A model generated the notes under the pieces. That model was not told where the DNA came from. It worked only from the letters and a program-made list of their open reading frames with translations, and did not search any database. The position numbers were made by a program, and so were the translations under genes. From assembly GCA_002118135.1 (NCBI GenBank), contig BDIU01000131.1, forward strand, positions 62,001 through 126,000: a DNA stretch of 64,000 nt, written 5' to 3'. Numbering within the stretch: position 1 is the stretch's first letter; every line of letters starts with the position of its first letter. Positions 835 through 62,553 of this stretch are shown piece after piece. The stretch comes from Trebouxia sp. TZW2008 (Eukaryota > Chlorophyta > Trebouxiophyceae > Trebouxiales > Trebouxiaceae).

Positions 835-3800
835 TCAGCGTTTAGCTCCCACCGGCGTCTGCACGTTCGCGGCCTTGGCGTCGAACTCAGTGCCGGTGTT
901 GTCAGCGTTCACTTCGGGTGTTTTCAAAGCTGGCGACTCGGCAGGCAGCACAGCCTCTGACTTCGGCTTTTTGGCTTTGCCCTGTGAGCTTTGTGCAGCG
1001 CTAGCTTTCACTTTTTTGCCGGCTTTTGCACCAGGCTTGCCGGCTTTCGCAGCAAGCTTTGGTCCATCCTGCTTGCCGAAGCCTTGAGACTTGCCACCAC
1101 CGCCAGCAGCCTGTACACAGATAGCAAGCTGTTAGCCAAGTCATACTTGCTTTCACCACACTGCTATACGAAAAGACAACAGTGCAGATTAGCTTGCCTT
1201 ACACAGCAAAGAAACACTTGGTCAACACATGATGATTTTGGAGTCACACGCTGAGAGCATACAAGGTTTGTCATGGCTTCACGTTGTTGTGTCAAGCTGC
1301 TTGAGTGGTGATATCTTGCCCAGCTTAAAGATCTTTTGACAAGATACAACAAAACAGTCAAGACGTACGACAAGCATTCTCAATCAACACATGAACAGCA
1401 CAGATATAAATGTATGTGTCCAGGGAAAAGTGAAGAAAATAGTAGAACAGTCGAGGAACCTGTATGATCAGCACAATGAAAGCACAGGTGATTGTCTACA
1501 CGCAGATGTCTCACCTTGCTCTTCATAGCCTCATACTGTTGCGTCAAGCTGCTCAAGCGATTCTCTGCTGCCTGGCGAGCGCTGACTTCTGCATCTTGGA
1601 CCTCTGCCAGCTGCAGCTGCAGTTTGGAAACCACATCTTCTGCATCAATTCTTGCTGTGCGCTCCTCTTCCAGATTCTTCCTTGCCCTGCGTGGACAATA
1701 TGTCATCCAGACAAAAATCATACTAATAGCACTGAAGATAAGATGAACATCGAGACCAGAGACATTGACAGTAGGGCTGGCATATACAACATTTCCCAGT
1801 ATCAGATGCGTATATACGCAGTATAATACGCCGTATGATACGCTTTTGTCTACTCATACAAACCGTAGAAGGGGTCAAGTACAGCCAAAATGGCCTCATG
1901 TACGGCGTATTATACGCTGTATTTCTGCGGCTACGTAGAACCAGACAAAGCGCAGATGCCAGCCCTAATTGACAGTGACAGTGACAACAATGGCAATCAT
2001 CACAGTAGTTGATAGTAAGGTCGACAATCTAGAACAGGTGCTCGATGTGTGTAGCTCGAGTCCTTTCTTGCCGGAGCTGCTTGTTTTGAGCAGAACGGTA
2101 CAGGCTGTTGATGTTCACTGTTGCTCTGCAGGATATGACCCTGTTGCAAACATAATCAGTGTACTGTATGTGCCTTGTAGATTGATTTGTAAGTGCTGAT
2201 GCCTGTGTTGCTTGGAGCTACGCACCTTCAGACGATACTCAGGCAAGCTGCTTGGAAAGCAGGTACATTTGCTGCTCATATCTTAAAGCTGAAAACAACA
2301 ATGGCGTAAGTGAAAGGCATGTCGGATGCCAAGTTTATCATTGACTATCAGCTGCATGAACAAATTGGCATCCAACCTGCTTTCCTGCTACGCCAGTGTT
2401 AGCTTCAGCTCAAGCACATCAGCTGTAGTACAAATGCCCAAGAACTGTTCTACTGCTGATCATGACCAGAAAAATAGAAACATTATAGTATATTCACATG
2501 TATGACGCTTTCCAGCAAAGATGCTAGGAGTGTGGCATCATATTGTACCAGCGGTAGAACAAACACCTGTGCCTCACACTCAGCACCTGTTCTGGAAAGC
2601 ATCACATATGTTTATATATTGAAATGTATCTATTCTTTTGTGCTCTACCTCTGCAGCTTCCTGGATGGGTTGGTGAGTGGTGAGTCAGTGTGTTGACCCT
2701 GCTATACAAATGTTGCTCTGATTGTCATTGGTCATTTGGCATTGTGTGGGTGTTACCTTTCTGCAGCTTCTTGTGCATCTGCCATATCGTTCTGCACCAA
2801 CTCAATCGCGCTGTGTAGCTTCTCCACAGCTGCTAGGGCATCATCTCTGTCAAACGCGACAGCCTGCAGCTCCTGCTGAGCCTACACAGCACAGCATGAC
2901 ATTCATGATTCAATTCAAAATGGTGGATTGAAACTCAGACTGCAAAATTAGCTCTAGGAACACTGCTGCCAGGGCTTTATCTCTGTCAAAAGCAACAGTT
3001 TGCAGCTCCTGCTGAGCCTACACAGCAATCTCCAACATTCAACCAAAATTGGTGAATTGAAAAACAGACTGCTAGCTTAGCTTGAGAATCACAATTGCCA
3101 GGGCTTAATATCTGTCAAAACTGACGGTGAGCAGCAGCAGTGACACAAAGTAGGTCAGAGTGCCAAAAAAGAATTGTGGCTGCGACAAGGCCCATGAAAG
3201 CAAAAATGCAGAGACTGCACAGCGTAGCAGCCACTGTCTTGATCGTGCTAAAGCACCAGCATTGAGACTTAGTGTTCTTCTGACTCGACAATTAGTATCG
3301 TGCTCAAGCGTAAGTTAGCCTTTGAACCCACAGATGCTGCAGAGCAGAGCTGTGGGTTCAAAGGCTAACTTAGTTGACGTAAGCATGGCAGAGCTTAAAT
3401 TAGCAGCAGGGACGCAAGCAGCACAGCATGAAAAGGTTTGAAGAGCAAAACAGAGCCTGGCTACAATGAGCAGGGCATTGTAGGGCTGGGCAGTGCAGGC
3501 AGAGCAAGGCACGGCAAGCTGAGGCATTTTGCAGCGAAGCAAGTCAGTGCGGTGCAGGGCAGGACAGAGCAGAGCAAGGCAGGGCGGGGCATCATTTGAG
3601 CAGGCAGAACAGGCAAGACGGGCAGGGCAGGGCAGGGCAGGGCAGGGCAGAGCAGGGCAGGGCGGGGCAGAACAGGCAAGGCGTAAAGGGCAGGGCAGGG
3701 CAGGGCAAGGCGATTTCATTACCTTTTTGACTTCTTGTTGAGTGTTGACACTTATTGATTGGGCACTACAGGCAGGACAGGGCAGGGCAGCACTGTACAA

Positions 3801-6350
3801 TGCATTGAAGGGTAGGATAATGCAGAGCAGTCCCATTACCTTGTCAGATTCTTGCTGAGCATTGAAGACCTGCTGGCTCAACTCACTGCACTGCGTCTTC
3901 ATCAAGGCAAGGCATCATGGACCAGGACAGTGCAGGGTAGGGCATGTTTTGACAGGGCAAGGCAGATTATGACAGGGCAGGGCGAGGCACTTCGTGGCCT
4001 GGCAGGGCACAAATGGCAGGGCAGGGCAGGGCAGTTTCAATACCTTGTCAGCTTCTTGCTGTGCGTTGAAGACCTGCTGGTTCAGCTCGTTGCGTTGCTT
4101 GTCTAAGTCTCCTGTGAGTGACTTGTTCTTCTGCTCTAGCTGTGCCTGGATGCGCTTCAAGTTGTCTGCTGTCTTCTGAATCTGCATGTGCACAAAATAT
4201 GTCTCGAAATGTGCATAGATTCAGAATCTCATGTTGAAGACCTGCTGGCTCAGCTCGTTGCGCTGTTTCTGGATGTCCCCTGTCAGCGACTTGTTCTTCT
4301 GCTCTAGTTGTGCTTGGATGCGCTTCAGATGGTCTGCTGTCTTCAATTTTGCATGTGCACAAAAATTTTGCACTTGTTGACATGCGCATCAGCTCAACCT
4401 GTTATAATGACGGCGTTTGAAAGCAGCTCTTTGCTTGCTGCACGACAAAACAAGATATAGCTGCTCATGCACTGAGCAGACAGCAACGGCTTCTACAGAT
4501 GAATTAGACAGAAGAGTCAGACAAATACAATAGGGTTGATAGAGTCTCCTAAATACAACACCCTAGACTTTTGACAGAGTTGACAAATTCCAGAGCAACT
4601 TGACATGCATTGACTGTCAGCCTGAAAAGCATTAAGGCGTACCTGGTCTGACCTAGACTGCTCATGCTCCAGTTGATCTCCAACTGATTCATGCTCACCC
4701 CACAGAAAGGCCCGATGACGCTTATGACAGGATCACACGCGCTACGCTCTGACACAAACTCTTTACTCCAACATTTGAGTTGATGACATTGAGGCGTACC
4801 TGGTTGGACCTAGATTGCTCCTGCTCCAGCTGATCTCCCACTGACTCATACTCACCCCTCAGATATGCCACCTGCTCCTTCAACTCAGCACCTGCACATT
4901 GCATGATCATGATCTCCATGTTTCATCAGTATGCCGTTTGACTTCCAACAGCAAGCATCAGACTATCAAAAATAATATTAGGTAAAGTGGGTTCCTAAGA
5001 ACAGATGATGATGTGAGTCCATGGCATTCAATCAAACAACTTGCATTTGCAACTTCAAAATTTGCTGTGAGAATGAGTGACATGAGCTTGAAAGTTGCAA
5101 AGAGTTTCATGCAGTGGACCTGAGGTCCTCTTGTCGCTGAGCTGCTTATTGGCGCTTGCACACGCAAGCCTTGCATGACCAATTCATGCAGTACGGCTTC
5201 AGGCAAACGCACAACATCGCAGCAACACATTGTCTAAGTCAGAAAGATTAGAGACCACAAATGTCATTGCAAGCATCAGAGTGTACCTGAGGTCCTCTCC
5301 TTGCTCAGCTGCTCATTGGCACTTGCAAGGCTTGAGTTGATCTCAGACAGCTGAGTCTTGAGCTGCTCAGCTTCCTGCCTGGCTGCAGTGCTAGTCAGCA
5401 CCTGAAAGCACACGAAATCTATGTCAAGCATTGCAAATGCACTGCACAGAAAGGATCTTGAGGTCTTTGAGCCCGCTGATTGGGCCCATTGCACCTGGCA
5501 TCAAAGAAAGCTAAACCCTTTACTCATGTTAACTCAGCGTGTTCACAGACAAGTTAGTTTTGAGCTGCTCAGCTTCCTGCCTGGCTGCTGTGCTAGTCAC
5601 CACCTGAAGAAGAACAGGAAATGTCAAGCTTAAAAAACATGCACAGCAACAGGAAAAATCTGTGGGTCTCTGAATTAGCTGACCAGGCATCACTGCATTT
5701 GGTGTGACAGATGGTTGCAATGGTTTGGCTCTACAAACAGCTTGATAAGTAACTGTGCTTGACTGTTTGTTCTTCCTGCTTGGTTGGATTGGACTGGGGC
5801 TTCACTGTTTGTTCTTCCTGGTTGCTTGATATGGAATGAGAAATCAATCAGGTAACAGTGGCAGAAAAGAATGACCACTCTCAGCTTTTAATCATGTGTT
5901 GAATAACATGCAGAATGATTACAGCACCACATGGGTTCAGGCAGATCAGGTTTTAGTCCAAATTTGCTGGCGCATCTTACATCTCAAGTCATGCCTACTG
6001 AAATCGCCCTGCTACAGCACTCACATTGGGCCTAGTTCCCCAAGCACCCTCAATTCAGCAAGATTGAGAGTACTCAGGAAGTTGAATTTTGACGAGAAGC
6101 AGAGAGCAGGAAGATGTAGTGAGTCAGTTTGACCCAGAAGTGCAGACTTGAGAAACGATAAAAAAGAAGGGAAAGTAGAACTCGCCTCTGAGTCAAGCCT
6201 CTTCTGAGTCTCCTCAGATGTCTTCCTCAGCGCAGCCACCTCTGAGCGCAGATTCTGTGACTCGGCCTGAGTCGCCTCAAGGTCTGTCTTGAGTCTGTCC
6301 ACCTCGCCTGCTCTGGCCACAAGCTCAGCTGCCATCACTTGCATCTGGCT
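835..6350 (-). CDS. Coiled-coil protein with basic Ala/Lys-rich tail; separate gene or 3' continuation of the locus at 8.1-21.7 kb
   Basis: Seven exons join with matching phases: 6350-6186, 5401-5287, 4891-4800, 4181-4044, 2881-2757, 1680-1515, 1110-835 (about 358 residues, stop TGA at 835-837). The first six exons encode uninterrupted heptad-type coiled coil, for example around KERTSGAELKEQVAYLRGEY and EAAERKNLEEERTARI, where both junctions are restored across introns. The last exon is different: Gly/Lys/Ala-rich, low-complexity and basic (KAGKPGAKAGKKVKASAAQ), so probably a disordered nucleic-acid-binding or anchoring tail. The donor after the first exon is GC rather than GT (6185-6184, context GAG|GCGAGT). 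It is the only site that keeps phase. No start codon with a good donor was found between 6.35 and 8.1 kb. The first exon enters in phase 0, exactly as the exon ending at 8752 leaves. I therefore infer an alternative 3' half of the upstream gene, but two genes remain possible. Function unknown. Confidence 0.65.
1262..1310 (-). repeat. Decayed copy of the 3' end of exon 1680-1515
   Basis: The minus strand repeats the SSLTQQYEAMKSK coding end of the exon (here SLTQQREAMTN), about 235 bases downstream of it inside the next intron. It has mismatches and no usable donor. It is part of the locus-wide set of exon echoes. Confidence 0.6.
1772..1967. mobile_element. hAT-type MITE, 196 bp, with intact 8-bp target site duplication
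   Basis: Seen directly: perfect 12-bp terminal inverted repeats, TAGGGCTGGCAT at 1772-1783 and its reverse complement at 1956-1967. They are flanked by the identical 8-mer ATTGACAG at 1764-1771 and 1968-1975. Inside lies a second, longer palindrome: TATAATACGCCGTA near 1821-1834 and its complement near 1901-1915. An 8-bp duplication with a TAGGG-type terminus is characteristic of the hAT superfamily. There is no coding capacity, so the element is non-autonomous. It lies in the intron between exons 2881-2757 and 1680-1515. The intact duplication suggests a fairly recent insertion. Confidence 0.85.
2640..3140 (-). repeat. Exon echoes of 2881-2757 on both sides of the exon
   Basis: The 5' part of the exon (AQQELQ, DRDDALAAV) recurs upstream at 2958-3026, still preceded by an acceptor-like TGTAG, and again, weaker, at 3090-3140. 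The 3' edge of the exon with its donor recurs downstream near 2645-2665. Spacing of the upstream copies is about 120-145 bases. The copies carry stops or lost splice sites and are best read as decayed tandem duplications. Confidence 0.65.
3480..4036. repeat. (GGGCA)n pentanucleotide array interleaved with exon echoes
   Basis: Long runs of the pentamer GGGCA (C-rich on the coding strand) occupy about 3480-3720, 3770-3800 and 3935-4036. Between them lie decayed copies of the 3' end of exon 4181-4044 with its donor, at about 3835-3905 (SQQVFNAQQESDK) and 3712-3755 (TQQEVKK). Each is followed by pentamer sequence. The true exon has the same arrangement (donor, then pentamers), so exon edge and pentamer array seem to have been duplicated as one unit. 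Confidence 0.75.
4225..4345 (-). repeat. Nearly complete decayed copy of exon 4181-4044
   Basis: The minus strand encodes a close relative of the true exon (LKRIQAQLEQKNKSLTGD is shared) but lacks a donor at the corresponding end and runs into non-homologous sequence. It lies immediately upstream of the true exon. It could be used as an exon only with a different donor; I read it as a pseudo-exon. Confidence 0.6.
4630..4703 (-). repeat. Decayed copy of the 3' half of exon 4891-4800
   Basis: Plus-strand text at 4638-4703 matches 4796-4860 with scattered substitutions, including the donor region (gcgtac before ctggt). It lies in the downstream intron, about 160 bases from the original. Confidence 0.6.
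5115..5604 (-). repeat. Echoes of both edges of exon 5401-5287
   Basis: The 5' edge (TSTAARQEAEQLKT with acceptor) is repeated at 5555-5604. The 3' edge with donor is repeated at 5115-5172. The original exon lies between them. Neither copy forms a complete exon. Confidence 0.65.
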
Positions 6351-6464
6351 CTGCAAAATTGCAACACAGAGATGCTGACCATTGTTCTTTGTTTTTTGTC
6401 TTCTCTGATTTGTTTTTGCTGTTTTCTTTGCAACAGCAAGTCAAAGATGATATTGTGTGCCATG

Positions 6465-6725
6465 AGTATATCCACCTCGCCTGCCTGTGCCACAAGCTCT
6501 GCCGCCAAGAATTGCATCTGACTCTGCAGGAATGCAAGCAAAAGATATGGAAAACCACAGCAAATGTATACTGACTGGTTTCAGAGGAAACCTCTGGGTC
6601 TGGAAAAGATGAAATGCAAAATTCAGATGCAGGCAAAAACTTGTCAGCTGGTGCCAAGAGAGGCAACTTGCAGGCCTTTTCTGCCTGCCCCTTTCAAAAG
6701 CTCAGCTGCCATCGTTTGAATCTGA
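6465..6725 (-). repeat. Two decayed copies of the 5' end of exon 6350-6186
   Basis: The region coding AAELVARAGEVD, with its acceptor, recurs at 6465-6535 (AAELVAQAGEVD) and more weakly at 6690-6725. Spacing is about 185-190 bases, upstream of the true exon. Confidence 0.65.
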
Positions 6726-7483: not shown

Positions 7484-8060
7484 TTATCTGCTCATCTGAC
7501 TGAAGCTTGGCTGCTACCAGAAACATCCGCTCATTGGACTACACTATGTAAAAGTGGCTGTATAATACACTGCTGTGATCTGACTCTGCATATCAACATT
7601 TTGATTTGCTAGTACAGCTCAGGCTTGATCAAGAAATCTGCACATTGTACAAATGCAAAGTTCCCTGGTACTACAGCTGCATGTCAGCTCTTCATGCTTG
7701 TACATCTTGAATGTAACGATTGAAATCTGCTCATCTGACTATGTACTGCAAAAGTGGCTATCTACTACAGCTGCTGTGGTCTGACTCTGAATCTCAGCAT
7801 GTCTTGACTGCTAGTACAGCTCGGGATTAATCAACAACATCTGCTCATGCCAGGAATGCAAAGCTCCCCACTACTACAGCTGGAAGTCAGCCCTTCTCAC
7901 TGCTTCTACAAGTTGGGCTGGATATTCAGATTTGCTCATCTGATCCAAGCAAATCGAAAAGGCAAAAAATGCAAAAAAGGCTATCTACTGCAACAGCTCT
8001 GATCTAACTTTTCTGCATAATGCTAACTGCAAATACAGCTTTAGCGTGCTGTTTCACTCA
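7484..8060. repeat. Tandem repeat of about 225 bp, two full copies and a partial third
   Basis: The order of motifs CTGCTCATCTGAC, AAAAGTGGCT, CTGCTGTG(A/G)TCTGACTCTG, GCTAGTACAGCTC and ACTACAGCTG is repeated from about 7484 and again from about 7722. A shortened third copy begins about 7935. The block follows the AT-hook stop codon. It has no recognisable coding content and no match to the adjacent exons, so unlike the other local repeats it is not obviously an exon echo. Confidence 0.7.
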
Positions 8061-8345: not shown

Positions 8346-11300
8346 CTGAAACAGATGACAAACCAGACGTCATGGCGTTGTGTCAGAAGACTAGGGGGAT
8401 GCATCAGGGGGCTAGTCTCATGCCACAATGCCATGCTGTCTTGAATGCCCTGTGTCAGAACGGTTGCTTTCACAAAACATGATTTTTGGAGGGAAATGGG
8501 GCCGATGCAAAAGAGGGGGTTGTTGGCGCGGGGGGAAGGGGTGGGCAAGGGGTGGGCAAGGGTGAGGGGGCTGCAGACGGGGGGGGGGGCAGGGCTGGGG
8601 AAAACACCAATTTGACCCTGTTACGCTCAGCGTCCGGAGCCTCTCTACTTATATTTGACCTGAGATCAGCAGCTGCATCAACAACTCAAGGGGGAAAGGT
8701 GAGAAAGGGCATCGGGTTGGGGAGGGTGGGTGTTTGCATTGCAAAGCTCACCTCCACTGACTTGACTTTGTTTCTCTCCGCTTCCAAGGCCTCTTTAGTC
8801 AGATTCAGCTCTGTGTCAGCAGCTGCCCGCTCAGCTGCTGCTGCCTCAGCATCCTTCTGAGCCTTGAGTGCCATCTCGGCTGTCTGCTCCTTCAATCGCG
8901 TCATGGCTTCCCTCATAGTGACGCGCTCTTTGCCCATCTGCAGAAACAGCTTGTCTTGTGAGTCAGAACAGAGCAACACAACATACAGTACCATTTGCCA
9001 AGACGACCACTTCCTCGCTGATATCATGAGCATTCTGACAGCAAGAAACACAGTTCAGCCCAAATGTTAGGCTGTGTCTGTCTGCTCTGCTTCACCCTAG
9101 TCATGGCTTCCCTTATAGTGACGCGCTCTCCTTGCCCATCTGTGGCAATAGTTGATATCAGTCATACTGAGAGAGAGTGCTTTGCAGTACAGCAGTTTCA
9201 ACAGTCACAACATGAGCTTGTGAAGAGAGTTGTACTATCCAGCACACACGCTAGGTTGTGGTTGTCTGCTCCTTCAGCCTAGTTGTAGAATCCTTGTAGA
9301 ATCCTTGATGGTGATGCGCACCTTGCCCATCTGCAGCAACAGCTTCCCATGTGAGTCATCATAGCTCTGTGTCAGCAGCTGCTGGCTCAGCTGCCGCTGC
9401 CTCGACGTCCGTCTGAGCTGTGAGCGCCATCTTGGCCGTCTGCTCTTTCAATTGAGTCATAGCTTCAATAATGCTGACGCGCTCCTTGTGCATCTGCAAT
9501 GGCAATGTCTCAAACTGAAAAGTGTTGAGGGAGATGATTATAGTGTGTTTACATTCAATGTACTTTCAGAGACCCAACAGGGGGGCCACAGGACACAGTT
9601 GGAAATGTACCAAAGACCCAGTGTAGGCCCATACTGACTGTCTCTACTGTAGCTGGTTATCACAAAGTCACAGCAAAATTCATGACACGCTTATGTTTTG
9701 AGTCTAAACGCTGAGTAGTGGCTTTGACAAAGAGCGCGTTACAGAGCGCCTTGGCTACACATGCTGGGTGTGCATGGCCCAACAAACACAAAGTCAGCCG
9801 TGTGTCAAGCTGGCATCTTGATGTCACATACAATGCCACCAGTGAGTGAACCTGAGCATTAAACATTGCTGGTGGCTATGCTTATGAGATCACGAATAAT
9901 TGGCTTGATGACGCAATGGCTTTGTGAACAGATTTGCTGAGCCCGGCAACATGCTTTACGGAAGCAGCACTCAACATTGTGGAGCTGACTTTCTGACTGA
10001 GCTGAACATCAGCTCATACACAACTCTTATATGGGCATGGTAGTCACGTACTGGTGGTGAAGTTTTGTCATGCCGATCAAAACAATCCATGCATTGTATC
10101 TGAGACATTCACTCCTTTGGCAGATGGTGCAATAGGTCTTGTGAATCAGTTGCTAAAGATCATTGCCAAGCAACAAGTAGGGCTTAGAAGAAAGTCGGTC
10201 AAGGTGCCTATCTCAGCATGACCTGTTCGTCAACTGCATGAGCAAAATGCACTCAGCTGTCAAACTCTGGGGAGCTTTGATGAGTGGCACCTCTGCACAG
10301 CTAATTGAGCTACACCAACTGGCAAGTAATGTGCAGACCCACCATTCCAATGTCAATCACAGCTGTTGTGATGCTGGAGTGATTGATCATAGAGTAGGAA
10401 CGTGCAGACCCACCGTCTGAATGTTGGTGTCCTGTGTCTGAAGGTTCTTCTTGACTTCCTCAAGTTCCTGCTCCAGGGTCTTGGAGCTGCCTGTGAGCTC
10501 CTTGATCTGCTCGTCCTGCTCCTCCAAAGTCTGCAGAATGACATTCAAACGTCAGCACATCAAGTCTGCGCCCTGCGCAGCAGAATTTGTGACATTTCCG
10601 AAGCCTCAGCTCAGACCTTTGGCAAATCAGATGCATGAATGGTTGGCACAATGCAAACACGTTTCTCAGACTGCTCCTGTGTGATGAGACAGTTTCCCTC
10701 TGCATCCCAACTTGCTGTGCAACAGCACAAGACAAACTCCTGGTGGTGGCCACATCACCGAAAGACAAGTACCGTCAAGCAAGCTCAGGGACAAGCAGCT
10801 TTGGCAACCAGGTTGTGCACCTGTGTCAGTCCCTGTTTCTCTGTGTCAAGAGTTGTGCGGCTGTCCAGAGCCGCCTGTAGCTCGCCCTTCAGAAGCTCGC
10901 TGTCGTTGCCGAGGCGTTCGGCGAACTCCTGCTGCTTGGCAAGCGCGTCGTTCGCCTCCTTCAGCAGTCGCTGCAGCTCCTTGGTCTCGGCAGCTGCGGC
11001 CCACCTGGCGGCCTTCTCGGCTTCAGTAGCTTCCGCCGAAGCGGCGGCCTCCTTCCTCATCGCCTCGGTCTGCACTTGACACAGCATGCTTGCAAAGACG
11101 GCATGACCTACTCTTTCTGTATGATTGTCTGCCACGATGATTGTACAAGAAATTTCAAAGCAAGGCTGTCAACAAGCACAAGCTTGCAGTGTTGCTCCTT
11201 CAAGGTGTCCAAGGTATGAAAAGGCTAGGCCGCCTCATGAGTCAGACCCACATACTACAGCATTCTCCATGACTGCTTGCTGGTGCGACATTGGTGCACA

Positions 11301-14300: not shown

Positions 14301-17300
14301 GTCTCCCGAAGCCTTAGATGATTTTGGTCTTATGTCTTTTTGTCGCCTTTTCTTTCTTGACTCACGCTGAAGTATACAGCTGAGAGTGCTTACCAGTGGT
14401 CCTGAGGAGGACTTCTGTGGAGCTTGCTGTGGTGGAGTTTGGACAATGACTTGAGGAGCAGCTGCAGGTGCAGGTGCCTGCAGTGCCTGCTGGGGTTCTG
14501 CAGTGAGCTCTGGTGCCTGCATCAATTTTGACCAACTTCAACAATTCAACGCTGACTGAAATGCAGTGGCTGCTGTGCCTGCTGGGGCTCTGCAGTCATC
14601 TGTGGTGCATCAAGCAGAGGGGAATGCAAATTTGAATTTATAAATGCAAAGCGCCATGCCTGCTGTGCCTGCTGCGTCGGAATGCAAATTGTTTGGCATT
14701 GGTCTTTGATCTCGGCATCAGGCTGATGCAAACATCATTTCATCAGGATCAGGCGTACTCAAGTCATGACATACAGAAAAGAAGCCGCCACAAGCTGTGT
14801 GTACCTGCTTGGCAGCTTCTGCTGCTAGCCTGGCCTGTTCCTCTTGCTCTTGAGCAATGCGCGCCATCTTGTCTTGAGCCTCGCGCAGAGTGGCAAGTGC
14901 TGTGGCAGCTTCTGCCTGGGCTTTGCCCCGTTCCTCTTCAGCAGCCCTTGCTGCTGCCTCAGCCTGCTGTGCCTGCTCAGCCAGCTGCTGTGCCTGCACA
15001 CACGCACAGACGGTCAAATATGGTTGGTGAAGCTAGGTGCTTGTGTGAAATCTTGACTGGAGTTTCACAGAGAATGGCAAGTGCAGTGCCAGATCCGACT
15101 CCTCTTCAGCAGCCCTTGCTGCTGCCTCTGCCTGCTGTGCCTGCTCAGCCAGTTGCTGTGCCTGCACACATGCACAGACATGTGCTTGTAGATGATACAA
15201 GTTCTGAGCATGTCAGCAAAACATTGCTCTGCAGCTGCCGCAGGCTGATGCATGCTGACAAATCTTTGATCTAGCAATAGGGACGGGTGAATTAGGCTGA
15301 ATAAATTTTAAAAAGCCAGTAACAGAAGAGTCAGGTCATGGGTGCTCAGTGAAACCAAGCAGCTGATCTGACACAGCTGACAACACCCATGACCAGCTCA
15401 ACAAGCACTGTGAGCATTTCATCACATGGCGTGTTGTAGTGCACCACAAGACGGTGTCGTACCTGTTGCTTAGTAACTTCAGCTGCCTGCTTGGCCTGTT
15501 GCTCTTGCTCTTGGGCAATCTTGGCTGCAGCAGCACGGGCCTCCTGCAGGGTGGAAGCTGCCTCCTTTTCTGCCTTGGCAACTGCCTCAGCAGCTTCTGC
15601 CTGGGCTCTGGCGCGTTGCTCTTCAGCAGCCTTGGCTGCTGCCTCTGCTTGGCGAGCAAGCTCAGTCTGCTGCTGTGCCTGAATACATGCCCAAACATCA
15701 GACCAAGTGGCAATCAGGCAGTGATACAATTCAAGATGTCAACACACCAGAATATGTACCAAGCTGGGCCTGCTGAGCCTGTCTAGCATATGTCTAGAAT
15801 AAAAAAAATAACTGAAGACCAGAATGCTGACAACGCACAACCATGAAACCACAACACTGCTCTGTATTGGAGTGTGACGCATTGGCATGCTTCCTTCCTG
15901 GGATGTGATCAGCAACATCAGGGCTCTGCAGGGCTTCCTGATACACGTGACACTGCCAAGTATCATCTTTTGGGTGAAACGACATGTTTGTAGTGCACTC
16001 GTCCATGATTCAGTGTGCAATGGTGCAAAATTCGACTCTGTGGACAGGCTTGTGTGATGTGTCACTGACTGGCAGCTGCACAAACCTGGCACAGAGGCAT
16101 ACAGTGGAGCTGCTCAGCATCGGCCCATACCTGCTTCTGAGCAGCTTCTGCTGCCAAGCTTGCCCGTTCCTCTTGCTCTTGAGCCATCTTGGAGACCCTG
16201 GCCTGAGCTTGTTCCAGTGTGGCTGCTGCCTCCTTCTCTGCCTTGGAAACTGCCGCAGAAGCTTCGGCCTGGGCCCTAGCCCGTTCCTCTTGAGCTGCCT
16301 TGTTAGCTGCTTCAGCCTGCTTGGCCTCCTCAGCTTGTTGTTCAGCCTGCAGGTCGTGAAATGTGTCTCAACTCTTGCCAAGCTCTGCAGCAGAGAATGT
16401 CATAAGCAAACAAAGTTGGCATCATGTGCTGCTCAGCAGAAAGAAAGCTAAATTTTAAATGCTCCTTGCGCCTGAGGCATCCCTTGCTGCTTGGCAGCAT
16501 TTGCAGCCTGCTCCACCACATATGGCTATACTAGGGGCCAAGTCAAAACCAAACCACACACCAGAACAGCTTCATGCTTTGAGGCATAGCCCATACCTTG
16601 GCAGCCTGCTTGTTCAATTCACACAAAGATCGCCAAAACCCCAAAATGCTGTACTGCACTCAAGGAATCACCTGTTGTTTGGCAGCGTCTGCAGCCTGCT
16701 TCACCAACTCATTAACCAAATATGGCAATACCAGACGCAAAGTTGAAAACAAAACCAGAAACCATAAGATCTTCATGCACCTGATGCAATGGCCCATTGT
16801 TTGGTTGCTGTGTTTTCAGACTGCACAGAGATTGCCATAAACATGCATGAGCTACATCACCATGCTGCACTGCACCCAAGGCATCACCTGTTGCTTGGCA
16901 GCATCTGCAGCTTGCTTACTCTGTTGCTCCCTTCTGCCGTGCAATGCCAGCAGCCTCGTCAAATGCAAGATCAGATGTTCCCAGCTGCAACAGGCGGAAA
17001 GTACAACCCAGAAACGTCAAGAACCAGAAACACTCGTTGCCTTTCTAGGCATTACCTGTTGCTTTGCAGCATCTGCAGCTTGCTTAGTCAGCTGCTCCTG
17101 CTCCTGTGCTATGCTGGCAGCCTTAGCACGGGCCTCCTGTAAGGTAGCAGCTGCCTGCTCCTCTGCCTTAGAAAGTGCTGCAGCAGCTTCTGCCTCGGCC
17201 TTGGCTCTGTTGTCCTCAGCTGCCTTGGCAGCTGCCTCAGCCTGGCGTGCCTGCTCGGCCAGCTGCTGTGCCTATACATAAGCACAGACATTTGCTTGTG

Positions 17301-34700: not shown

Positions 34701-37531
34701 CTCAGCAGCACACTGTGCTTGTGACACAAATCGCCAAGCCCTGCTAAGCTTTGATGCACACCAGTACTGCTCTCTCCCTGCAATGCGACGGACAAATATA
34801 GCTGTTGGCAACTGCTCCGTGCACAAGAATGGCCCATTACGTGTCTCCGATCAGCAAAGCATCATGCTTGTGACACAAGTCTTCCAATCCGGCTAAGCTC
34901 TGATGGATTCCAGTGCTGCTCTCACTCTGCGAATCAGGAATCACTTGAGTCCATCGCAATTGCTTAGTCATCTACATGCCCTGTGCTGGTCAAAGTTTGT
35001 GATGCAATGGGAAAGAAGGTTGACTAAGCCAACATTGGAGCAGTGTAGCTGACTTATGTTCAGCTCTTAGAGCAACGGAGCTTGTTGGGGCCAGGACGGG
35101 CTGGGGGGAGGGGTCAGCAGGGGTCAGGGGATTGGGGCTATGGGGTCACAAGGGAAACAGGGGTGGCTGACCTGACATAGAAACAGTGCAGCTGGCTTGT
35201 GCTGCTCCAATGTTGCCTTTATGTCATCCAGCTTCACAGCAGCTGCTGGTGGGGACTCTATGTTGATCACCTTACCTGCACATTGTAAAAATCATGTAGC
35301 AGCTACAGTCACTCTGACAGTTACATTTGAGCAAAAATATGGTGTTGTTTGGAGCAGCTGCTGGTGGGGACTCTATATTCATCACCTTGCCTGCGCAACG
35401 TGCATGCCAATTCTTGACAAGCTCTTGTTATAAGGACAGTCAAGATGAGGACGTTCTTACTGTATCATGCAGTTCAGGAGAGGTCAGTGCATGGTGACTG
35501 CATAGTACTTGTTTGTAAGAACACTCAGGGTACGACACAGAATTATTTAGGGCTTGACCTGAATTCTGCCTGCAAATGCAGTATTTGCAGACCTGTATAC
35601 ACGGTCATTTTCAGGAGAAACAATTGTTTTGAGCTTTTGAGAGCTAGGTGCATGTATGGAACCTTACATATATTGAAGATTCCAACCAAAAGTTGTTGCA
35701 GGGACTGAAAACCTTCAAGAATCACTCCAATTGACTGACATCAAGAGATGTATTGGGGCAAATGAGCACCAAATACATAGTTATTGCATCAAACCCCCTC
35801 ATGCTTGCTAGCCTGGCTCCAACAGCAAGAGAGAACAATTGTGCACTTGTCAACAAATCATTGTCATTATGCTGCCAAACACAGATTACTGACCCACCGG
35901 CTTAGTCAACTGAGTCAGCAGGGGTGCTGCAGGGGCGCTGCAGGGGTTCTGCAGCAGTTCTGCAGAGTTTCTGCAGCAGTTCTGCACGTAAATCAATACT
36001 GCATAGTTCTGCTAGGTCAGTGCAGGGATTTGGCAAGTGCCTTGCAGAAAGTTCTGCAATTCTGCCTGCAACATTCTGCACGGGGGTAATTCTGCCTGCG
36101 CTGTACCCTGAGAACACTTGGAACCAGATGCATCTGTTGAATGAAGAGAATACTGCACAGTTGACTGGCTGTAAGAGATCTTTGAAGAACATGAGTATTT
36201 GCTCAAATGCAAGGAAGCAGGGCTTTCAGAGTGTAGAGCTATCCTACAGCAACGTTGATGGCCAGCAAACTGGTGTGCAGATTCTTCTATCAGGAGGGTT
36301 TGCGTGGAGAAGTTGAGCAAGACCTAGTATGGTAAGACATACCTCCATATCTCTCAGACAAGTCACAGACACGCTGTCCCCAGATTCCAGAAGTGGCCAC
36401 CGCTATGCTCTCTCCTGGCTCAATGCAATTTGCAATGGCTGCTTCCATGCCAGCATGCCCTGTGCCACTCACCTGAAATGAAGAAAAATAATGTGCCTTT
36501 CAGATATATGAAGAAGAAACGAAAGAAGAAGAAGTGGTGATGACAAGAGAAGACGAGTGTGGTGAAGAAGAGGAGGGACCAGAATGACTGGCTTGCCCTG
36601 TGCCGCTCACCTGCATCAACACATTGCGACATCTGAGTGTGCATGAAACCATGAGCATGGTCTGAAGAAGAAGTGAGACAAAATGTACATAGAACATGCT
36701 GAATGAAGAGTTACCTGCAGAAGCAGAGGAGGGACATATTGCGATTTGCAGAATTCATGCAAGCTCATGCGAGAAAGCTCATATCTTGATGCTTAATACC
36801 AATGATTGTCACACAGTGGTTCGAGCTATGCTCGCGTGATGCAAACATTGAGACTTTTTCAAACGTGAAATCAACATGCATTGTGTCGGAGTGAGGCTCT
36901 GAACAGTCCACGACTTGATGCAGACACATGATCTGCAGCAAGACCTACAACATGACAGCACCAACAGAGCCAGCACCAAAAGCATGTATTGTGAGAGAGT
37001 CTGATTAGCATGCAGCTTCATGTCAAGAGGCTTGTTTCCAGCAGCACGTATTGTGAGGTAGCCTCGGTCACAGTATTGTGCAGGACCGTATAGGAGGCTG
37101 TACATAGGTAGGAGATGTTTTGAGTTTTGTTGTACCAGCAGCACGTATTGTGAGGTAGTCTGGAACAGGTAGCGCAAGCCCTGTTGAATCTCATCCATGA
37201 TGGCAAGGAACGGGGGATGCAAGTGGCCTAGCAGGGGAAGGGCTTGAGCTGTAAGGACCCTGGGATGAGCGTTGGTGGGACCAGGTCCCATCAGCGTTCT
37301 AGTTGGCACCTGCGTGCCAGAGATGCCAGGTTTGCTGAGCGTGAGATGGCCATGTGGCAGCTCAAGCCTTGGTGGGGACTGCTTCAAAGCTAGCGGGATC
37401 AGTCCACTAGATCGCGAGGTGGAATTCGATACCTTGAGCGGCGAAGGGCTGGCTCTGTCTTTCTCAGAGATCTTGTGCACGGTCTCGCCTTGCCGCTGGC
37501 TATATTCGCTGTTGTCTACAGGTTGAGCCAT
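31763..37531 (-). CDS. AGXT: Alanine/serine-glyoxylate aminotransferase (PLP class V)
   Basis: Seven exons: 37531-37136, 36472-36343, 35275-35172, 34488-34308, 33769-33613, 32978-32737, 31938-31763 (about 461 residues). From residue about 79 the protein follows the family closely: [70 protein letters not shown] (the Lys forms the PLP Schiff base), [36 protein letters not shown]. It transfers the amino group of alanine or serine to glyoxylate, making glycine in photorespiration. A Ser/Lys/Pro-rich extension of about 78 residues precedes the conserved part, and the C-terminus (NESRVNYP) has no PTS1-type signal. I therefore infer a mitochondrial rather than peroxisomal location. The donor after 34308 is GC (CCAG|GCAAGT). 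The in-frame TTG further upstream is not a start; ATG at 37531 is chosen. Confidence 0.93.
32012..32255 (-). repeat. Two decayed copies of the 5' edge of the last aminotransferase exon
   Basis: CACGCCACACTTGACCAGCG, followed by CTAGGGC, is perfectly conserved in the exon (31906-31932) and in copies ending near 32105 and 32250. Spacing is about 155-165 bases. The copies have frameshifts further in. Confidence 0.8.
33335..33612 (-). repeat. Echo array of the 3' edge of aminotransferase exon 33769-33613
   Basis: A longer copy at 33395-33490 repeats the [17 protein letters not shown] region with errors. Shorter fragments (GTAGACAC, GTCTACTCACCA) recur at about 33340, 33385, 33500, 33530, 33575 and 33600. 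The donor with its flanking GTAGACA is thus repeated about six times. Confidence 0.65.
33850..33912 (-). repeat. Decayed copy of the 5' edge of aminotransferase exon 33769-33613
   Basis: CCCCTTCAGCTTCTGCATCG and CCTGCTCACGCATGAACAAGG repeat 33720-33762, coding [11 protein letters not shown], with acceptor remnants. Confidence 0.6.
34063..34935 (-). repeat. Echoes of aminotransferase exon 34488-34308: one 3' copy, three 5' copies
   Basis: The 3' edge (KCLSAPP) is copied at about 34085-34120. The 5' edge ([21 protein letters not shown] with acceptor) is copied at 34565-34640, 34705-34780 and 34860-34930. With the true exon this makes four units spaced about 145-150 bases. Substitutions accumulate and none has a donor. 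Confidence 0.8.
35350..35398 (-). repeat. Decayed copy of the 5' edge of aminotransferase exon 35275-35172
   Basis: GCAGCTGCTGGTGGGGACTC followed by TATATTCATCACCTTGCCTG closely matches 35239-35278, including the acceptor. Confidence 0.7.
36969..37062 (-). repeat. Two copies of the 3' edge of aminotransferase exon 37531-37136
   Basis: CAGCACGTATTGTGAGGTAG at 37040-37060 repeats 37137-37156 exactly. A weaker copy lies at 36969-37000. In both the GTAC donor has changed. Confidence 0.65.
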
Positions 37532-44000: not shown

Positions 44001-47000
44001 GTGCAAATATCATTCAGGCATGCACTGATACTCCACTCATGCCCTCATTCATTGATTTATTCGACAAGTCATGCGCGTTCAATGGCATGTCCATGCAGCT
44101 TGCACGGGGCGCTCACCGGCACGTGCAGATGTCACAGTTGAACCTGACTCGAACAGCTGAAGAAGAATCAATCAAGGAAGGCCATGATGCCTGAATGCTG
44201 CAGAGGGATGATTGATTCATGCACTCACACCTACTTACCGCTCACACACTCTCTCAGCATTCAAGTTATGCATCTGTGATAATTACTCAATGACGCATCT
44301 GTACAGACTTCAAAAGGTGCTCACCGGCACGCGCAGATGTCGCACTTGAACCTGACTTGACACAGCTGAAACTGCAGATTGGGATCATTGAGCGCCATGA
44401 TGTCTGAATTCTCCTTGCAGAGAGGACAGTTGCGGCAAGGCGGAGTCTTCTCTCTGCACTGACATTTCCTGAGATGCAGCCTGCAGAGCACAAATCCGCT
44501 GTGGTACCAACTGTGTCAAGGCAGGTGGGCTTTTTGTGGTACTGCAGTCCAATTGGCAATGCAGATGAGCAATCAACCTGTGGGTTGTGCAAGGTATGCA
44601 AGCAAATGACCCCATATCCGACCAGTCGGATACAGTCGGAAAGTTGCTGAAGTGGCTCATGAAGTATGAGTGCTGCATGACAAAAATGCGTGGGCGCCCG
44701 TAGTGCTTGGCAGTGACAGCTTTGTGGACATTTATGATTTTACCAAAACATGAACACTAGCCATTTACGACATCCTGACAGCAGCAGGTGCAGCTTTGTC
44801 TTGATGATAACCTGTTGCCATCAACATCAACTTTGGTAGACAAGCCATCCCTGACAGTGTAGACATGACTGCAGTAGGGGCAGGTTTCCTCAGGGGCTGC
44901 TGTGCGCTTGCGCTTCACCCCCCTGGGCCCCATCTGGGGGTCTGGGGCGCGGGGCACGCTGACACTGCTGGTGCGCATCTTCAGTTCCCGAGTCACTACC
45001 TCGACTGCTGCTGCAGACCTGCAACAAAATTTTGGCTTGATCACTTTCTTTGAGTGCAGAAGTGATTGAGTGATCATTGCACGTTGGACTCTCCCGCCCC
45101 CTTCCGGCCCTCTACCTCTGAAGGAGATTTGGCGCACAGGGTACATTGACACTGCTAGTGCGCATCTTCAGTTCCCTGGTCACTACCTCAACAGCTGCCG
45201 CAGACCTGCACCAGAATCTTGGCTTGATCGCTATCTTTGAGTGCAAAAGTTATTGAGTGATCATTGCACATTGGGGTCTTTCCCTCCCCCCCTGGGACCC
45301 ATCTGGGGGTCTGGGGCGCGGAGAACGCTGACACTGCTGGTGCACATCTTCAGTTCCCTGGTAACTACCTCACTACCTCAACTGCTGCCGCAGACATGCA
45401 ACAGCATTTGATTGGTCACTGTATTTGACTGCAGCAGCAGGTGAGTAGCCATTGCACGTTAGGGTCCCTCCCCCGCCCCCCCGCTCCGCCCTCTGACTCT
45501 GAAGGGCGTGGGGGTCGCGGGGCGCACTGACACTGCTGGTGCGCATCTTCAATTCCCTGGTCACTACCTCAACCGCTGCTGCGGACCTGCATGATCACTT
45601 GCTTGATGACTGCAGCTCGCATGCACGCCGCCCCAAAGACCTATGTGGGGTCTCTGCAGATGCATTGAGTGGTTACTGTGACTTGGGTCTGACATCCCCT
45701 CCTTTCCTCCTGCCGAACCCATCTAGGGCCATGTGGGGCATGGCTAATGCTGTCAGTAATATCTTCAAAAGCCGGCTCATGACCTCAACAACAGCTGCAG
45801 AGCTTAAAAACCCATGCATCCTGCCCCAAGGGACCCATCTGAGGGTCTGCAAGGATGGCGGGGGGAAAGCAAAGAAATGGAGGCTTCGTCGCAAATTCAA
45901 CAGCATTACATTTGCATTCAGTTTTCATTGCAGCAGCGCTTCATGGACTGCAGGAGCCCCTTCTGAGCCCCCTTTTCGAGCGTGTAGATGTGCCGAGCTG
46001 CCTCGTACAACGCCGCTTATGCCGACTGAAGTCACAAGTCTGTTGCTGCACAGTGGACGCATTGCTTGACAAAAGTTTGCCAAGAGCTTTCATGACTCAC
46101 CTGTAGAAAGCTTCTTTGGTGGTGCGTAGGTTGTCCTGAGCCTCTTTGAGCTCGCCAACCCGGCTCTTCCAGCTCTTCTGCTTCTCAATGCTGGCTTGGT
46201 CTGCCCTGTATGCATCCCTTGCCAATGCCCTTGCAGCATCCACCTGCCACACAAAAGTTGCACAGTTTGTGTGCTTGTCCCAACATTGACCTTGCTGCTG
46301 CAAAGTTGCTGCTGTGGAGTCCTGCCATTGTGCGTCAGTTGTTGTAGGCCTGTATGTACGCCTTGCCAGTGCCCTTGCTGCAACCTCCTGCCACACACTC
46401 ACAGCAGGCATCAGACTTCAGCACCGTAGTGCGTGACAACCGTTGCAGCACTAAAAGCAGCACTGAGCAGAGCTTTTTCCTGCTGCTTCTCAACGTTGGC
46501 TTGGTGCGCCCTGTATGCATCCCTTGCCAGTGCCCTTGCTGCAATCTCCTGCCATACACCCACTGCAGGCATCAGGCTTCAGCACCCATGGTGCATGACA
46601 GTTACTGCAGCACTGAAAGCAGCACTGAGCAGAGCTTGTCCCTGCTGCTTCTCAATGTTGGCTGGGTCTGCCCTGTATGCACCCCTTGGAGATAAATTTG
46701 CTGCATCCACCTGCCACAAAAGTTGACACAGATTCTGCATAGTGCTTGTTGAGCAGGGGCCATGGGTCTACCCCACGTGAAAGTACTGAAATGACAATGA
46801 ATTGCAGAGATGAAAGCTGAGCAATTGCAAACAAAGCCCATCCAAGTCAAGCCTGGCATTGACAGACACAAGCAACACTGGCTGCAACAAGAAAGACCTC
46901 AGCATAGATAAATGTTCACAGGATGATCTGTTGCATCATGACCAGCATCTTTATCGCTTGTGTGCCGTTAATTAAGCCCAACTCGAGGAAAGAGGGACCC

Positions 47001-49237: not shown

Positions 49238-49239
49238 CA

Positions 49240-50526: not shown

Positions 50527-51050
50527 CTAAAAGATATGCTGCCATGACTTGCGTACAACTGGATACAGAGCTGCCTTACAGGACCTAGTTGAGCCACTAT
50601 TCAAGACATACGCCACAATGCCGTGATGGGAATGCCTAATCAACTTCGCTGTCACTTGCTGGGCATACAAATCTTTCAGGGCAGACAGACTGCAAAGAGC
50701 CCTAGGGCCTGCCCCACCTGACAAGCCCCTTATCACACCTGAGGTCACATAGCCCATGACTGTACTTGCCTGTTTACTAATAGCAGGGTCCTGCATGTCA
50801 TCATCATCAGCACCTCTGACTGAGTCACTGCTGTGATCAAGACCTTCCTCTACTTCAGCATCAAATTCAACAGCCTCATTGTTATCATCAGAGTCCATTG
50901 CAGTTGCCATTGGGTCAAGCTCTGCTATTGCAGCTGAGTCATGAGCGCTCTTTGCAGAGTCTGCATGAACAATTGCTGTGGGGTGTTGGGCAACATGATG
51001 TTCAGCCAGCAGGTGTGACTCATTATTGCGATTGCCATAATCAGCATCAT

Positions 51051-51093
<43 letters not shown>

Positions 51094-59528: not shown

Positions 59529-59887
59529 GGTTGTCACCTGACAAGATGTAACCCGTGACTGTCACGACAGCAGGGAGGACAGCTCAACGCGATGCTTTGA
59601 CATACACTGAAGCATCCAGACCATCCTTGCAGATGCTTTGTCGCATGCGATGCCGAACAGGCAACTGCATGTAGCGAAAGTGACTGGTTTCGGAGCGAGC
59701 CCGCGACCCAAAAGCTGGTGCTGACTGAAGTTACTCTGACCGTCGCGTTGAGTCACTGGTCGTCGGCTGGTATCTGGCGTACGCATGTTGGTCTTGGTCG
59801 TCTGAAGTTTGCGTGTGACGGCCTCACTCTTCTCGCGGCCTTCCTGCCGCTGGCTGCCTGAGCGTTGCTACCTGTTGTGAGCTATCT
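59529..59887. promoter_or_regulatory. Compact divergent promoter between POP1 and the basic disordered protein gene
   Basis: The two start codons (59528 minus, 59888 plus) are separated by only 359 bases, which must contain both promoters and leaders. It is visibly CpG-richer than the flanking introns. No TATA box or named element is claimed. Confidence 0.55.
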
Positions 59888-62553
59888 ATGGGCTTGTTTG
59901 CAAAAAGGAGTAAGAGTGACGCTGTCGAGGCGATAGACCCTGTCGACACAGCCGAGGCAGACGAGCAGCAGCCAGCAGTGAGTCCAAATGCCCGCAGCCG
60001 AGGCCTTCTGCGGAAGCGCAGCAAGAACGAGGCACGGTTTGCATGACAATGACATAACGCCCGCTGCGCCTCGCTGCGCCAGGCATATCAGCAGCAAAGC
60101 ATGCAAGTGCTCGTTGGCGCAGGATGTGCTCAACGGACACGAGCCGGCACTAGAAGCAGACTCTGCAAATCAGACCAAAAAGAAGGGGTGGCTAGGCCGA
60201 AAGTCTAAGGTAAACTTACGGTATTGCTATTTGCATGGGCCCTATGTCAAGCACAGCTGCATTTAAGAAGCTTATGCTCACATGCCCTGGCAGCCATTAG
60301 TCAGCTTACCTTGCTTGACATTGCAGTCAACTGCTTGGTAAGCAAAGCTGCACTGTTTGGCAAAATAGCAGCAGACCAGAAGCATCAAGATTTCAGTCAA
60401 CTGCTTGGCAGGCAAAGCAGCACTGTTTGGTCTAAAGCAGCAGCAGACCAGAACCATCAAAGCCAGCTCATGCTCATGTCGCTCTTGGATGCCTTGTGCA
60501 CCAATTCATCGTGTGTCACCGCTGTCAGTCGCACATGCATGACGAAGGCATGCAGTTGCAGAACAGGCGGCTTTCTGGAGTGGTTGTCAAGCCTGCTTAG
60601 ACAGAACTGTACAGATGCATGTCAATTCAGATCCATCTACACTGCTGTCTGTGTCAACTCAAATCCATCTGCTTTACACTGAGGATAGTGGCACTTCAGC
60701 GCATAACGTTGCACCTAGCCTTGGGGCTCAGACCCAATGCAGCTGAGCCTTGCCAGCATTGAGGCCTTTCAGATGCTAAAGCTGCAAAGCCTGCTGTCCA
60801 TGTTGCAAGTTCTTGCACAATGGACACATTGCGCATTTGGCAGCATGCCAAATTTGCTGTGCAATGTGCACGTCAACAGGCGCATGTAACAGTCTGGAGT
60901 CAATCTTATGACGCAAATGAAGATCCTCCCCAAGACCTGCAAAAGTCGCTTGTCTTGACTAACTCTTGACCCTACATGGTCTCAAGTCTTGCATTGCTCC
61001 TCAATCTTTTGCCTGATTGCTTTCTACAGGAAGAAGTTGCCCCTTCTGTGCCTCGTCAAAGCAACAGCATATTATCAGGAATCCACCAGCATCTACAAAA
61101 TTTGCTGTTATTTTGCGTGCAAGAGAATGCACAAACTTCTCACATTTCTGAACTAGCTGTTTGATGGTTGTCTCTCTTTGCAGGAGGCAGCTGCTCCCCC
61201 TGTACCACCTCAAAGCAATGGCAGGATATCAGAAGATAAGGCAACAACCCAATCAAAGGGTGACAAACGCAACTGGATAGGCCGCAAGTCTAAGGTGAGT
61301 CATCAGCATGTCACTGGTCAGTCAATGTGCATGCATTTTGAATTTGAATGTCCTGCTCAATACAGTGTCAGGCAAATCACTTGAACACACAAAAGTTGTC
61401 TATGCCGTCAGTTATTACGCTGCACACCTAGCTTTTTATGCTGCTGTGCCTAATGGAAAGCAAGCATGACTTGGTCTTCAGTGCAGTTTTGTCCATACAA
61501 GCACAGGAGAATGTCCAATTTCTGCTGCAGCTTAAGAGTCATGCACAAGGGACGTGCATAGAATGAATCTTAGATTAATGGACGGCTGAAGTGCTGGTGT
61601 ACAGCAATGCTTCAACTTGAAAGCGAAGTATGGGACTCGTCATGCAGGATTCTGGCAGTGAAGACAGCACATCCATCACTCCAGCTGAAATTGTGGCGCC
61701 AAAACCGCCCCCTCGTGTGCGCACGCCAGAGGAAGTTGCCGCCGGATTAGAGCGGCAAAAGGCGGCAGTGGATGCAATCCGAAATACGCCAGAGAAGCGC
61801 GCTGCCACTCGTGCTGCGGCGCCAATTGAAATTCCCTCCACAACCATCGCAGCTGGCGTCAGCACAGCGCCGGTGGATACCAGTGGCGCCAACAGGCCTT
61901 TGGCGCCAGCCAGTTCTGGCGGGAAACTCAAGGGCATGTTCAAAGGCAAGGTGCCCAGCGTGCCAGGGTTCAAATCCAAGCGTGCTACAGCTGTGGCCGG
62001 CGAGGGAGCGGTGGTCAGCTCAGCTCCTGTAGAAGTCGCTTCTGACACCACCTCCTTGCCAGCAACTGACAACAGCCAAGGCAGCGGTGGTGCCACTGCC
62101 AGCACTTCGAATCCAGCGGTGGCGCCAGAGCGTTCAAAGTCTGGCGGGAGGTTCTCAGGCATGTTCAAGCGCAATTCTGGCAAAGCAAAGAAGAGCAAGG
62201 GCAAGGCCAGTCCTGGGGTAACTAATGATGTGCCAGATGAGGTTGAGTTGACTGATCAGGTTGACAATGTGCGTTTGAGCGAAGAGCCCGTATTGGCGGG
62301 AGAACCTACCAAGCAGTACCCAGAAGGGGTGCATCAAGTGCCAGCTCAGCAGTTCCCACCATCAGCTCTGTCATCAGGTAATCAAGCTCCTTGCACTGCC
62401 AAAAACTTCTTCAATTTGTACGCACCCCCGGGGCTGCTCCAACAAATGCAGTTTTGCCCAAAGCCCTTGCAAGACCAGGTGTGGAGCCAGATGCAAATGA
62501 TCAGACCGTCTGGTTCAACAGAGCAATTGTTCGCAAGCGAGGCAGTCCAATAA
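59888..62553 (+). CDS. Unrecognised basic disordered protein with repeated GLFxxKSK-like motif
   Basis: Four exons: 59888-59977, 60123-60209, 61184-61294, 61648-62553 (about 397 residues, stop TAA), all junctions phase 0. There is no globular domain. A short motif of Gly, a hydrophobic pair and a basic KxK-type end recurs: GLFAKRSK, GWLGRKSK, NWIGRKSK, GMFKGK...GFKSK and GMFKRNSGKAKKSKGK. Between them the sequence is Ala/Pro/Ser/Thr-rich. Such hydrophobic-plus-basic repeats could bind membranes or nucleic acids; this is inference. An alternative donor at 62378 (TCAG|GTAATC) leaves in phase 1 and would join exactly to the exon at 63269, giving a longer protein. TGTAA 26 bases after the stop supports use of the short form. 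No family recognised. Confidence 0.65.
60325..60465. repeat. Tandem duplication of about 75-80 bp in the second intron
   Basis: CAGTCAACTGCTTGG(T/C)A(A/G)GCAAAGC(T/A)GCACTGTTTGG and AGCAGCAGACCAGAA(G/C)CATCAA occur twice in tandem. Origin is unclear; similarity to a neighbouring exon is weak. Confidence 0.8.
61019..61085 (+). repeat. Decayed copy of the 5' edge of exon 61184-61294
   Basis: An acceptor (TTTCTACAG) followed by EEVAPSVPRQSN mirrors the true acceptor (CTTTGCAG) followed by EAAAPPVPPQSN, about 155 bases upstream. No donor follows. Confidence 0.7.

Follow-up and report, generated by a model that had tools for sequence, protein, structure and literature searches.

Short local direct copies at exon edges and in non-coding DNA of the green alga Trebouxia sp. 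TZW2008

In a stretch of 64,000 nucleotides from the genome of Trebouxia sp. TZW2008 (contig BDIU01000131.1, positions 62,001 to 126,000; the window), introns hold partial and diverged repeats of the edges of neighbouring exons. An earlier note on this DNA attributed these repeats to a local duplication process that starts at or spans splice junctions, whereas intron growth is often ascribed to transposons. The locus raises the question of whether such pieces are made by copying that recognizes splice junctions, are working exons, or are the part that happens to touch exons of a duplication process acting on all of the DNA. Our analysis indicates that the process is general and operates in all sampled parts of the genome, where short stretches of DNA are continually copied nearby in direct orientation, mostly at a distance of about 75-220 bases; about a quarter of the sampled tiles carry a detectable local copy. 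Exon edges could serve as clocks for this process, as one copy is constrained and the other mostly free, giving a readable record of intron growth. Intron lengthening, the rate at which spare splice sites appear and the formation of new exons from such pieces would thereby become testable.

We examined the window (G000:C127:62001-126000 of a 68.5-Mb genome in 527 contigs) together with 22 other stretches, for a total of 282 kb. The added stretches (21 with 10 kb each, one with 8.1 kb) were chosen by hand, mostly by contig number and before the sequence was viewed, and are not machine-random; L018 (266 bases) was excluded, and 21 short stretches around kinase exons were used beyond the 282-kb sample. 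An independent array was defined as the best pair in each overlapping cluster (E<=1e-4, spacing <=1 kb). The tile test sought a direct partner 40-1000 bases from each 120-base tile, with 3-4 kb as the control distance. Exons were taken from a gene model self-trained on the sample, which comprised 396 exons of at least 40 bases with a median intron of 323 and, after the fourth training round, the splice consensus CAG|GTGAGC at donors and TTTGCAG|G at acceptors. This model fuses adjacent genes, cuts an intronless open reading frame (ORF) into four and possibly calls copies exons. Two anchors are independent of it, namely an aminotransferase gene in the window and 21 kinase exons verified with Pfam.

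Local direct copies across the sample

The arrays are real and lie far above chance. Self-comparison of the window yielded 95 pairs, and of the pairs within 1 kb in the whole sample 339 were direct and 21 inverted, which rules out an inverted-repeat origin. A direct partner within 1 kb was present for 567 of 2343 tiles, compared with 28 at 3-4 kb, and a simulated genome without duplication gave a partner rate of 0.000-0.002. Partner density peaked at 160-180 bases; at 220 it fell to 190 per 100 bases, from 475 before. Across the 141 independent arrays the median spacing was 167 (interquartile range 121-206), with 122 arrays at 250 or less and 86 at 115-220. The window contributed 38 independent local arrays, where the earlier note had counted about 25, and 27 of these fall in the 115-220 range that it had given. 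All five arrays that it named are present (8.81-9.50, 16.48-16.92, 34.40-34.99, 44.92-45.61 and 46.18-46.74 kb), and the intronless gene that it had named GT61 and described as free of arrays, a 554-codon ORF at 38.65-40.32 kb, has no pair. Its proposal that copies decay with distance from the exon did not hold: 98 anchor segments, which are neighbouring and not independent, had copies at more than one distance, and similarity was higher for the nearest copy in 47 of them and for the farthest in 51. A link with nucleosomes, on which it had speculated, is compatible with the spacing mode of 160-180.

These sequences are local. Matches elsewhere in the 282-kb sample were found for 2 of the 141 arrays, so that no dispersed element is indicated, and three arrays searched against the genome, with a search that skips very common words, matched their own locus only. 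Taken together, these results argue against a dispersed transposon or introner family for the arrays tested, in agreement to that extent with the earlier view that exon-containing repeats of this kind are neither. Introners and intron-creating transposons (PMC9860276) resemble the arrays in bringing repetitive sequence into introns, but the arrays tested here are local and contain exon sequence, with no dispersed family found. Neither the window nor the ten loci searched contained a known RNA family at gathering score.

Copies at exon edges

In the 60 edge arrays whose source lies on the expected side, copies mostly keep one splice site and show its partner no more often than chance, in line with what had been proposed. 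A scoring splice site is kept in 48 of the 60 and AG or GT is lost in 11, while the other splice site occurs near the block end 25 times against 29.5 expected, which is no excess. By our own arithmetic, a drift of 11.5% at two bases predicts about 22% loss of AG or GT, near the observed 11 of 60. Both kinds of edge are touched by 17 of the 141 arrays, compared with 19.9 when the arrays are shifted. The codon pattern is near neutral: the 48 copies not predicted to be exonic show mismatches of 0.13, 0.112 and 0.228 by codon position and 8 in-frame stops against 12.1 expected under neutrality. When a free copy is compared with an exon under constraint, the mismatch rate is expected to rise up to twofold at third positions, as is seen here. 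The 60 aligned blocks, intronic parts included, contain 61 gaps not divisible by three. The copies thus drift on average, and some may be or have been exons; single pairs with a third-position bias occur at L014 6789 (1,0,8), L009 9610 (1,0,7) and window 19003 (6,5,22). The suggestion that the copies supply raw material for new exons is plausible, if unproven, for the minority with this codon-type constraint.

The gene for a serine/alanine-glyoxylate aminotransferase, on the minus strand, illustrates these properties independently of the gene model. Seven exons chosen from ORFs and joined align to PDB 2huf over 365 residues (405 bits) and match Aminotran_5 at 4.4e-35, and the copies, which adjoin at least four exons (3, 4, 5 and 7), are surplus to the protein because this alignment needs none of them. 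Exon 4, a source exon at 34282..34488 (3' end approximate), has its acceptor edge at 34488; positions 146-207 of Aminotran_5 fall at contig 96306-96494, or window 34306-34494. Upstream of this exon lie a partial copy with the acceptor and about 28 codons (34558..34642, edge 34642), a second partial copy (34694..34777, edge 34777), both with approximate lower ends, and a third copy with flank (34841..34988, edge 34926), which is the most distant and also the closest to the exon in sequence (head 0.83, flank 0.76). The acceptor edge of exon 3 (35172..35275) at 35238-35282 is copied at 35353-35397 over 45 bases at 91%. Exon 5 (33613..33769) is flanked upstream by a copy of its head (33833-33929) and downstream by a copy of its tail (33376-33492), and head copies with a period of about 153 lie upstream of the last exon (31778..31938), between 32009 and 32264. 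The gene adjoining the aminotransferase carries a SURNod19 domain (8.3e-17) at 26159-26830.

The kinase exons, selected by Pfam search in rank order with an open frame of at most 140 residues (n=21), provide a second set. Six have copies, namely L032, L034 and L035 from a group of 14 and L043, L045 and L046 from a group of 7, and in all six the copies of the 5' part lie upstream and those of the 3' part downstream. The L032 exon has head copies upstream and tail copies downstream, with copies at 848-945 and 970-1152. Across 13 kinase copies there were 74 synonymous and 83 non-synonymous codon changes, distributed 51/47/97 by position, and two of the 13 were mostly synonymous (11 to 3 in L032 and 10 to 2 in L034). 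Two of the three non-synonymous changes in the 90% copy of L032 affect residues that look essential, in what we take to be the DFG and APE motifs. Judged from their sequence, the kinase copies are probably surplus, as they repeat catalytic or catalytic-loop segments that should occur once per protein.

Origin of the copies

We regard it as an even call that the arrays reflect pervasive short local duplication that is filtered by selection, with exon-edge copies later overwritten from the exon. Local direct duplication without sequence specificity, with a step of about 75-220 bases (mode 160-180), would act in introns, in intergenic DNA and across exon edges, possibly through replication slippage or template switching. 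Duplications within an exon would be removed by selection, and those across an acceptor or donor would be tolerated, as the original splice site on the outer side would remain functional. The result would be a spare exon head upstream or a spare exon tail downstream; the pieces observed have one splice site and a partner site at chance level, and they drift on average. With the true exon under constraint, its resemblance to the spare piece would outlast that of the introns around them. Conversion from the exon, or renewed copying, may sometimes refresh the exonic part while the flanks diverge beyond recognition. The arrangement of the copies and the gene structure point to the selection filter; blocks that look younger than their flanks, together with two mosaic arrays, suggest the refreshment. 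We hold it rather doubtful that local copying or conversion limited to the splice edge keeps spare heads and tails in concert with the exon while the introns turn over, at a step near the nucleosome-repeat length.

That duplication leaves exon pieces in introns, as the earlier note had proposed, is supported, but the process is not exclusive to exon edges, and the data do not support a start at splice junctions. Up to 43 of the 141 arrays, some deep in introns and some between genes, contain less than 10% predicted exon; this is an upper bound because at least two of them (34403-34988 and 34086-34337) touch aminotransferase exon 4, which the gene model cuts to just 16 bases. A partner was found for 76 of 300 segments of 340 bases without predicted exon and for 6 of the 21 verified kinase exons, although an excess of up to twofold could lie hidden in these equal rates, since a segment counts as either member of a pair and an exon mainly as the source. 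The corresponding figure for long predicted exons was 48 of 114. Tile rates were 0.34 at acceptor edges, 0.32 at donor edges, 0.24 in pure exon, 0.18 in deep intron and 0.20 in intergenic DNA. Median spacing was 133 for arrays without predicted exon and 173.5 for mostly exonic ones, and pairs with at least 0.85 of the unit aligned made up 27 of 54 among the non-coding, 18 of 28 among the mixed and 12 of 73 among the mostly exonic ones. Introns with array sequence are longer (median 459, n=125) than those without (280.5, n=314), in line with the proposed intron enlargement, but this is a correlation, and long introns offer more room.

The boundaries of the shared blocks are informative for the mechanism. 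In 49 arrays the block reaches a median of 12 bases into the intron and 67 into the exon, with an intron reach of 20 bases or less in 34 of the 49 and in 41 of 60 under a slightly wider selection. The repeated unit, earlier described as an exon edge plus adjoining intron, thus includes the edge as stated, but mostly a slight intron part. Simulated tandem duplication with decay, run with constrained exons, the same detection and three indel rates up to nearly five times the measured rate, gave a reach of 37-44 bases on the intron side, with 20-34% of blocks stopping within the first 20. The gene model recovers far fewer exons in simulated genomes; the later duplication simulations use true labels. 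Flank identity 20-40 bases away was 0.52 against 0.45 in matched controls and 0.65-0.70 in simulation, and over the whole set a faint flank similarity extends to 100 bases (z 2.5-3.6 beyond 20 bases). Since unbiased duplication and decay as simulated do not explain these block ends, some step bounded by the exon seems to be involved, whether in the copying itself or, likelier, in later conversion. In 24 high-identity pairs with spacers of at least 40 bases, spacer similarity above chance totalled 153 score units against 1746 for tandem units, although three of these pairs are the outer ones of arrays with a shorter period and ought to be discounted; 8 of the 24 spacers matched a neighbour at p<=0.01.

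Head and flank tell different histories in two of three arrays tested, as exchange between copies would leave. The nearer copy in L046 has an exon head at 0.93 and a 70-base flank at 0.50 (random 0.47), whereas in the farther copy the flank is at 0.89 and the head at 0.77. On the minus strand near 45 kb, a source exon (44812..45018, from the exon model, with its edge) is followed by three upstream head copies (45116..45612, edges 45205, 45395 and 45586, spacing 187-191); the farthest matches the exon best in the head (0.89) and worst in the flank (0.49), and the nearest matches it best in the flank (0.87). As read from the sequence, the middle copy has lost its AG and gained a frame-shifting insertion, and a genome search with 45100-45620 matched that locus only. 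Head and flank agree in the aminotransferase array, where the farthest copy is closest in both.

Several results weigh against duplication without exon bias followed by conversion. Arrays more than 60% exonic number 70 of 141, compared with 44 ± 5 by random shift, and simulated unbiased duplication gives only 18-24 exonic arrays among about 92-100. Edges are contacted by 64 of the 141 arrays against 56.5 ± 4.4 under shift (acceptors 47 and donors 34, each against 38.2 expected), a small difference on its own; contact is thereby 1.13 times the shift null where simulation gives 0.72-0.82. A moderate exon excess is possible but unproven because it is seen with self-trained exons and not clearly with the verified ones. 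That blocks end at splice sites might itself reflect copying confined to the exon. The 33 edge-limited arrays retain little flank similarity (z 1.1-1.8 per window beyond 20 bases), so the evidence that they began as old tandem duplications is not firm. The case for conversion draws on two mosaic arrays, while head and flank agree in the third; the poor flank of the nearer L046 copy stems partly from an insert beside the acceptor, and further upstream this copy, by eye, again resembles the others. Finally, the 12 copies predicted to be exonic, a biased set, hold 0 stops against 4.1 expected.

Copying that recognizes or ends at splice junctions, as the earlier note supposed, would insert exon heads or tails with their splice signal into the adjoining intron, leaving spacers unrelated. 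In its favour are the median reach of 12 bases into the intron, which none of the three simulated indel rates reproduces, the low spacer similarity and the mostly exonic arrays above chance. We nevertheless consider it unlikely, given the 43 arrays without predicted exon, partly of shorter spacing, the lack of a clear excess at verified exons, the flank similarity kept by longer-reaching edge arrays and the 8 of 24 spacers that match a neighbour; in addition, we know of no enzyme that copies at splice junctions in this manner. Simple neutral tandem duplication with a selection filter and slower decay on the exon side, without conversion or an exon-bounded step, accounts for the direction of the copies, their one-sided splice sites and their codon pattern, and the 27 of 54 non-coding pairs that align over at least 85% of the unit are of the kind that it predicts. 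It would, however, give the longer simulated reach of 37-44 bases and too few exonic arrays, and it predicts an agreement of head and flank that two of three arrays lack, so that it is already strained and, in our estimate, improbable.

Marginally more credible, though still improbable, is that many copies are working exons, that is, tandem exon duplications used for alternative splicing or protein repeats, with diverging introns. A similarity profile comprising exon and splice signal fits this explanation, as do the three third-position pairs, a coiled-coil gene at 14.8-20.2 kb made of such exons, the absence of stops from the 12 predicted-exonic copies and the mostly synonymous kinase copies in L032 and L034. 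Most edge copies are, however, partial and show no excess of a second splice site; 48 of the 60 have the near-neutral codon pattern, with the 61 gaps noted above; the aminotransferase aligns without them; the kinase copies appear to repeat single-copy catalytic segments; and the 90% copy of L032 alters residues presumably in DFG and APE. The creation of new introns from a duplicated exon segment containing AGGT would draw on local duplications of the right size and on the many short introns, but it needs a donor aligned with an acceptor, which occurred in 0 of 187 edge mappings. This rules it out for the arrays mapped, and as older cases could escape detection we leave it a very slight chance.

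The arrays share features with several known systems. Gao and Lynch in 2009 reportedly described internal gene duplication. Their study is cited in PMC4974935. Tandem exon duplication, as presented by Ivanov and Pervouchine (2018, PMC6071210; 2022, PMC9013439), likewise involves local direct duplication of an exon and adjoining intron within a gene, but the edge copies here are mostly partial and drifting, have no second-site excess and lie among similar non-coding arrays. Intron gain of the AGGT type also consists of a short tandem duplication touching exon/intron structure, and the paper on it also notes an 83-bp intronic duplication; the difference lies in the 0 of 187 donor-acceptor alignments. 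Minisatellite-like repeats subject to conversion are direct repeats in which head and flank would be expected to disagree, unlike the present arrays in that copies here are few and diverged, with units mostly of 75-220 bases and similarity anchored on exons. A limited search of the open-licence literature on introners, intron gain and the duplication of exons turned up no exon-bounded copies of this kind, which is no proof of absence. Both the step size and the way in which similarity is bounded by the exon are specific puzzles that can be checked.

Further arrays and features of the window

Other edge arrays in the window lie on the minus strand. A head-copy array at 46175..46737 has a period of about 161, and the array at 8807..9498 comprises a coiled-coil exon (8752-8937) with partial copies at 9078-9142, 9302-9358 and 9363-9498. 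A very similar edge pair at 14932..15179 is 96% identical over 80 bases at a spacing of 168, and its 88-base spacer has only weak similarity to its neighbours. The pair at 4065..4364 consists of two exons 168 bases apart that differ mostly at third codon positions (4, 1, 10) and are perhaps both working. Arrays without assigned strand include one without predicted exon at 7525..7943 (period 200), which matched its own locus only in the genome search, one named in the earlier note at 16475..16917 (period 188) without a predicted exon of at least 40 bases, and a plain non-coding tandem pair at 60320..60460 (period 70, 87% identical).

The coiled-coil gene at 14800-20210 has eight predicted exons, each 189-216 bases long, that encode 63-72-residue repeats, and the pairs examined there differ mainly at third codon positions, as in ordinary retained exon duplication. 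A predicted coding region in L019 (2105-2707), with spacings in multiples of 30 (120, 180, 240, 420, 450 and more), represents a repeat within the protein and not a copied exon edge. In contrast to the local arrays, short repeat pairs that are dispersed occur at 27571-27671 and 52250-52348 and, inverted, at 15758-15816 and 27547-27605; they are perhaps an old mobile element. A 32-base minisatellite lies at 19251-19434, and a GGGCA-rich repeat at 3557-3712 lies within DNA that holds diverged copies at a spacing of 69 bases. A POP1-like exon at 50530-51864 (POP1_C, 1.1e-07) contains a CAG run (51042-51092) that reads as a polyalanine run in the ORF.

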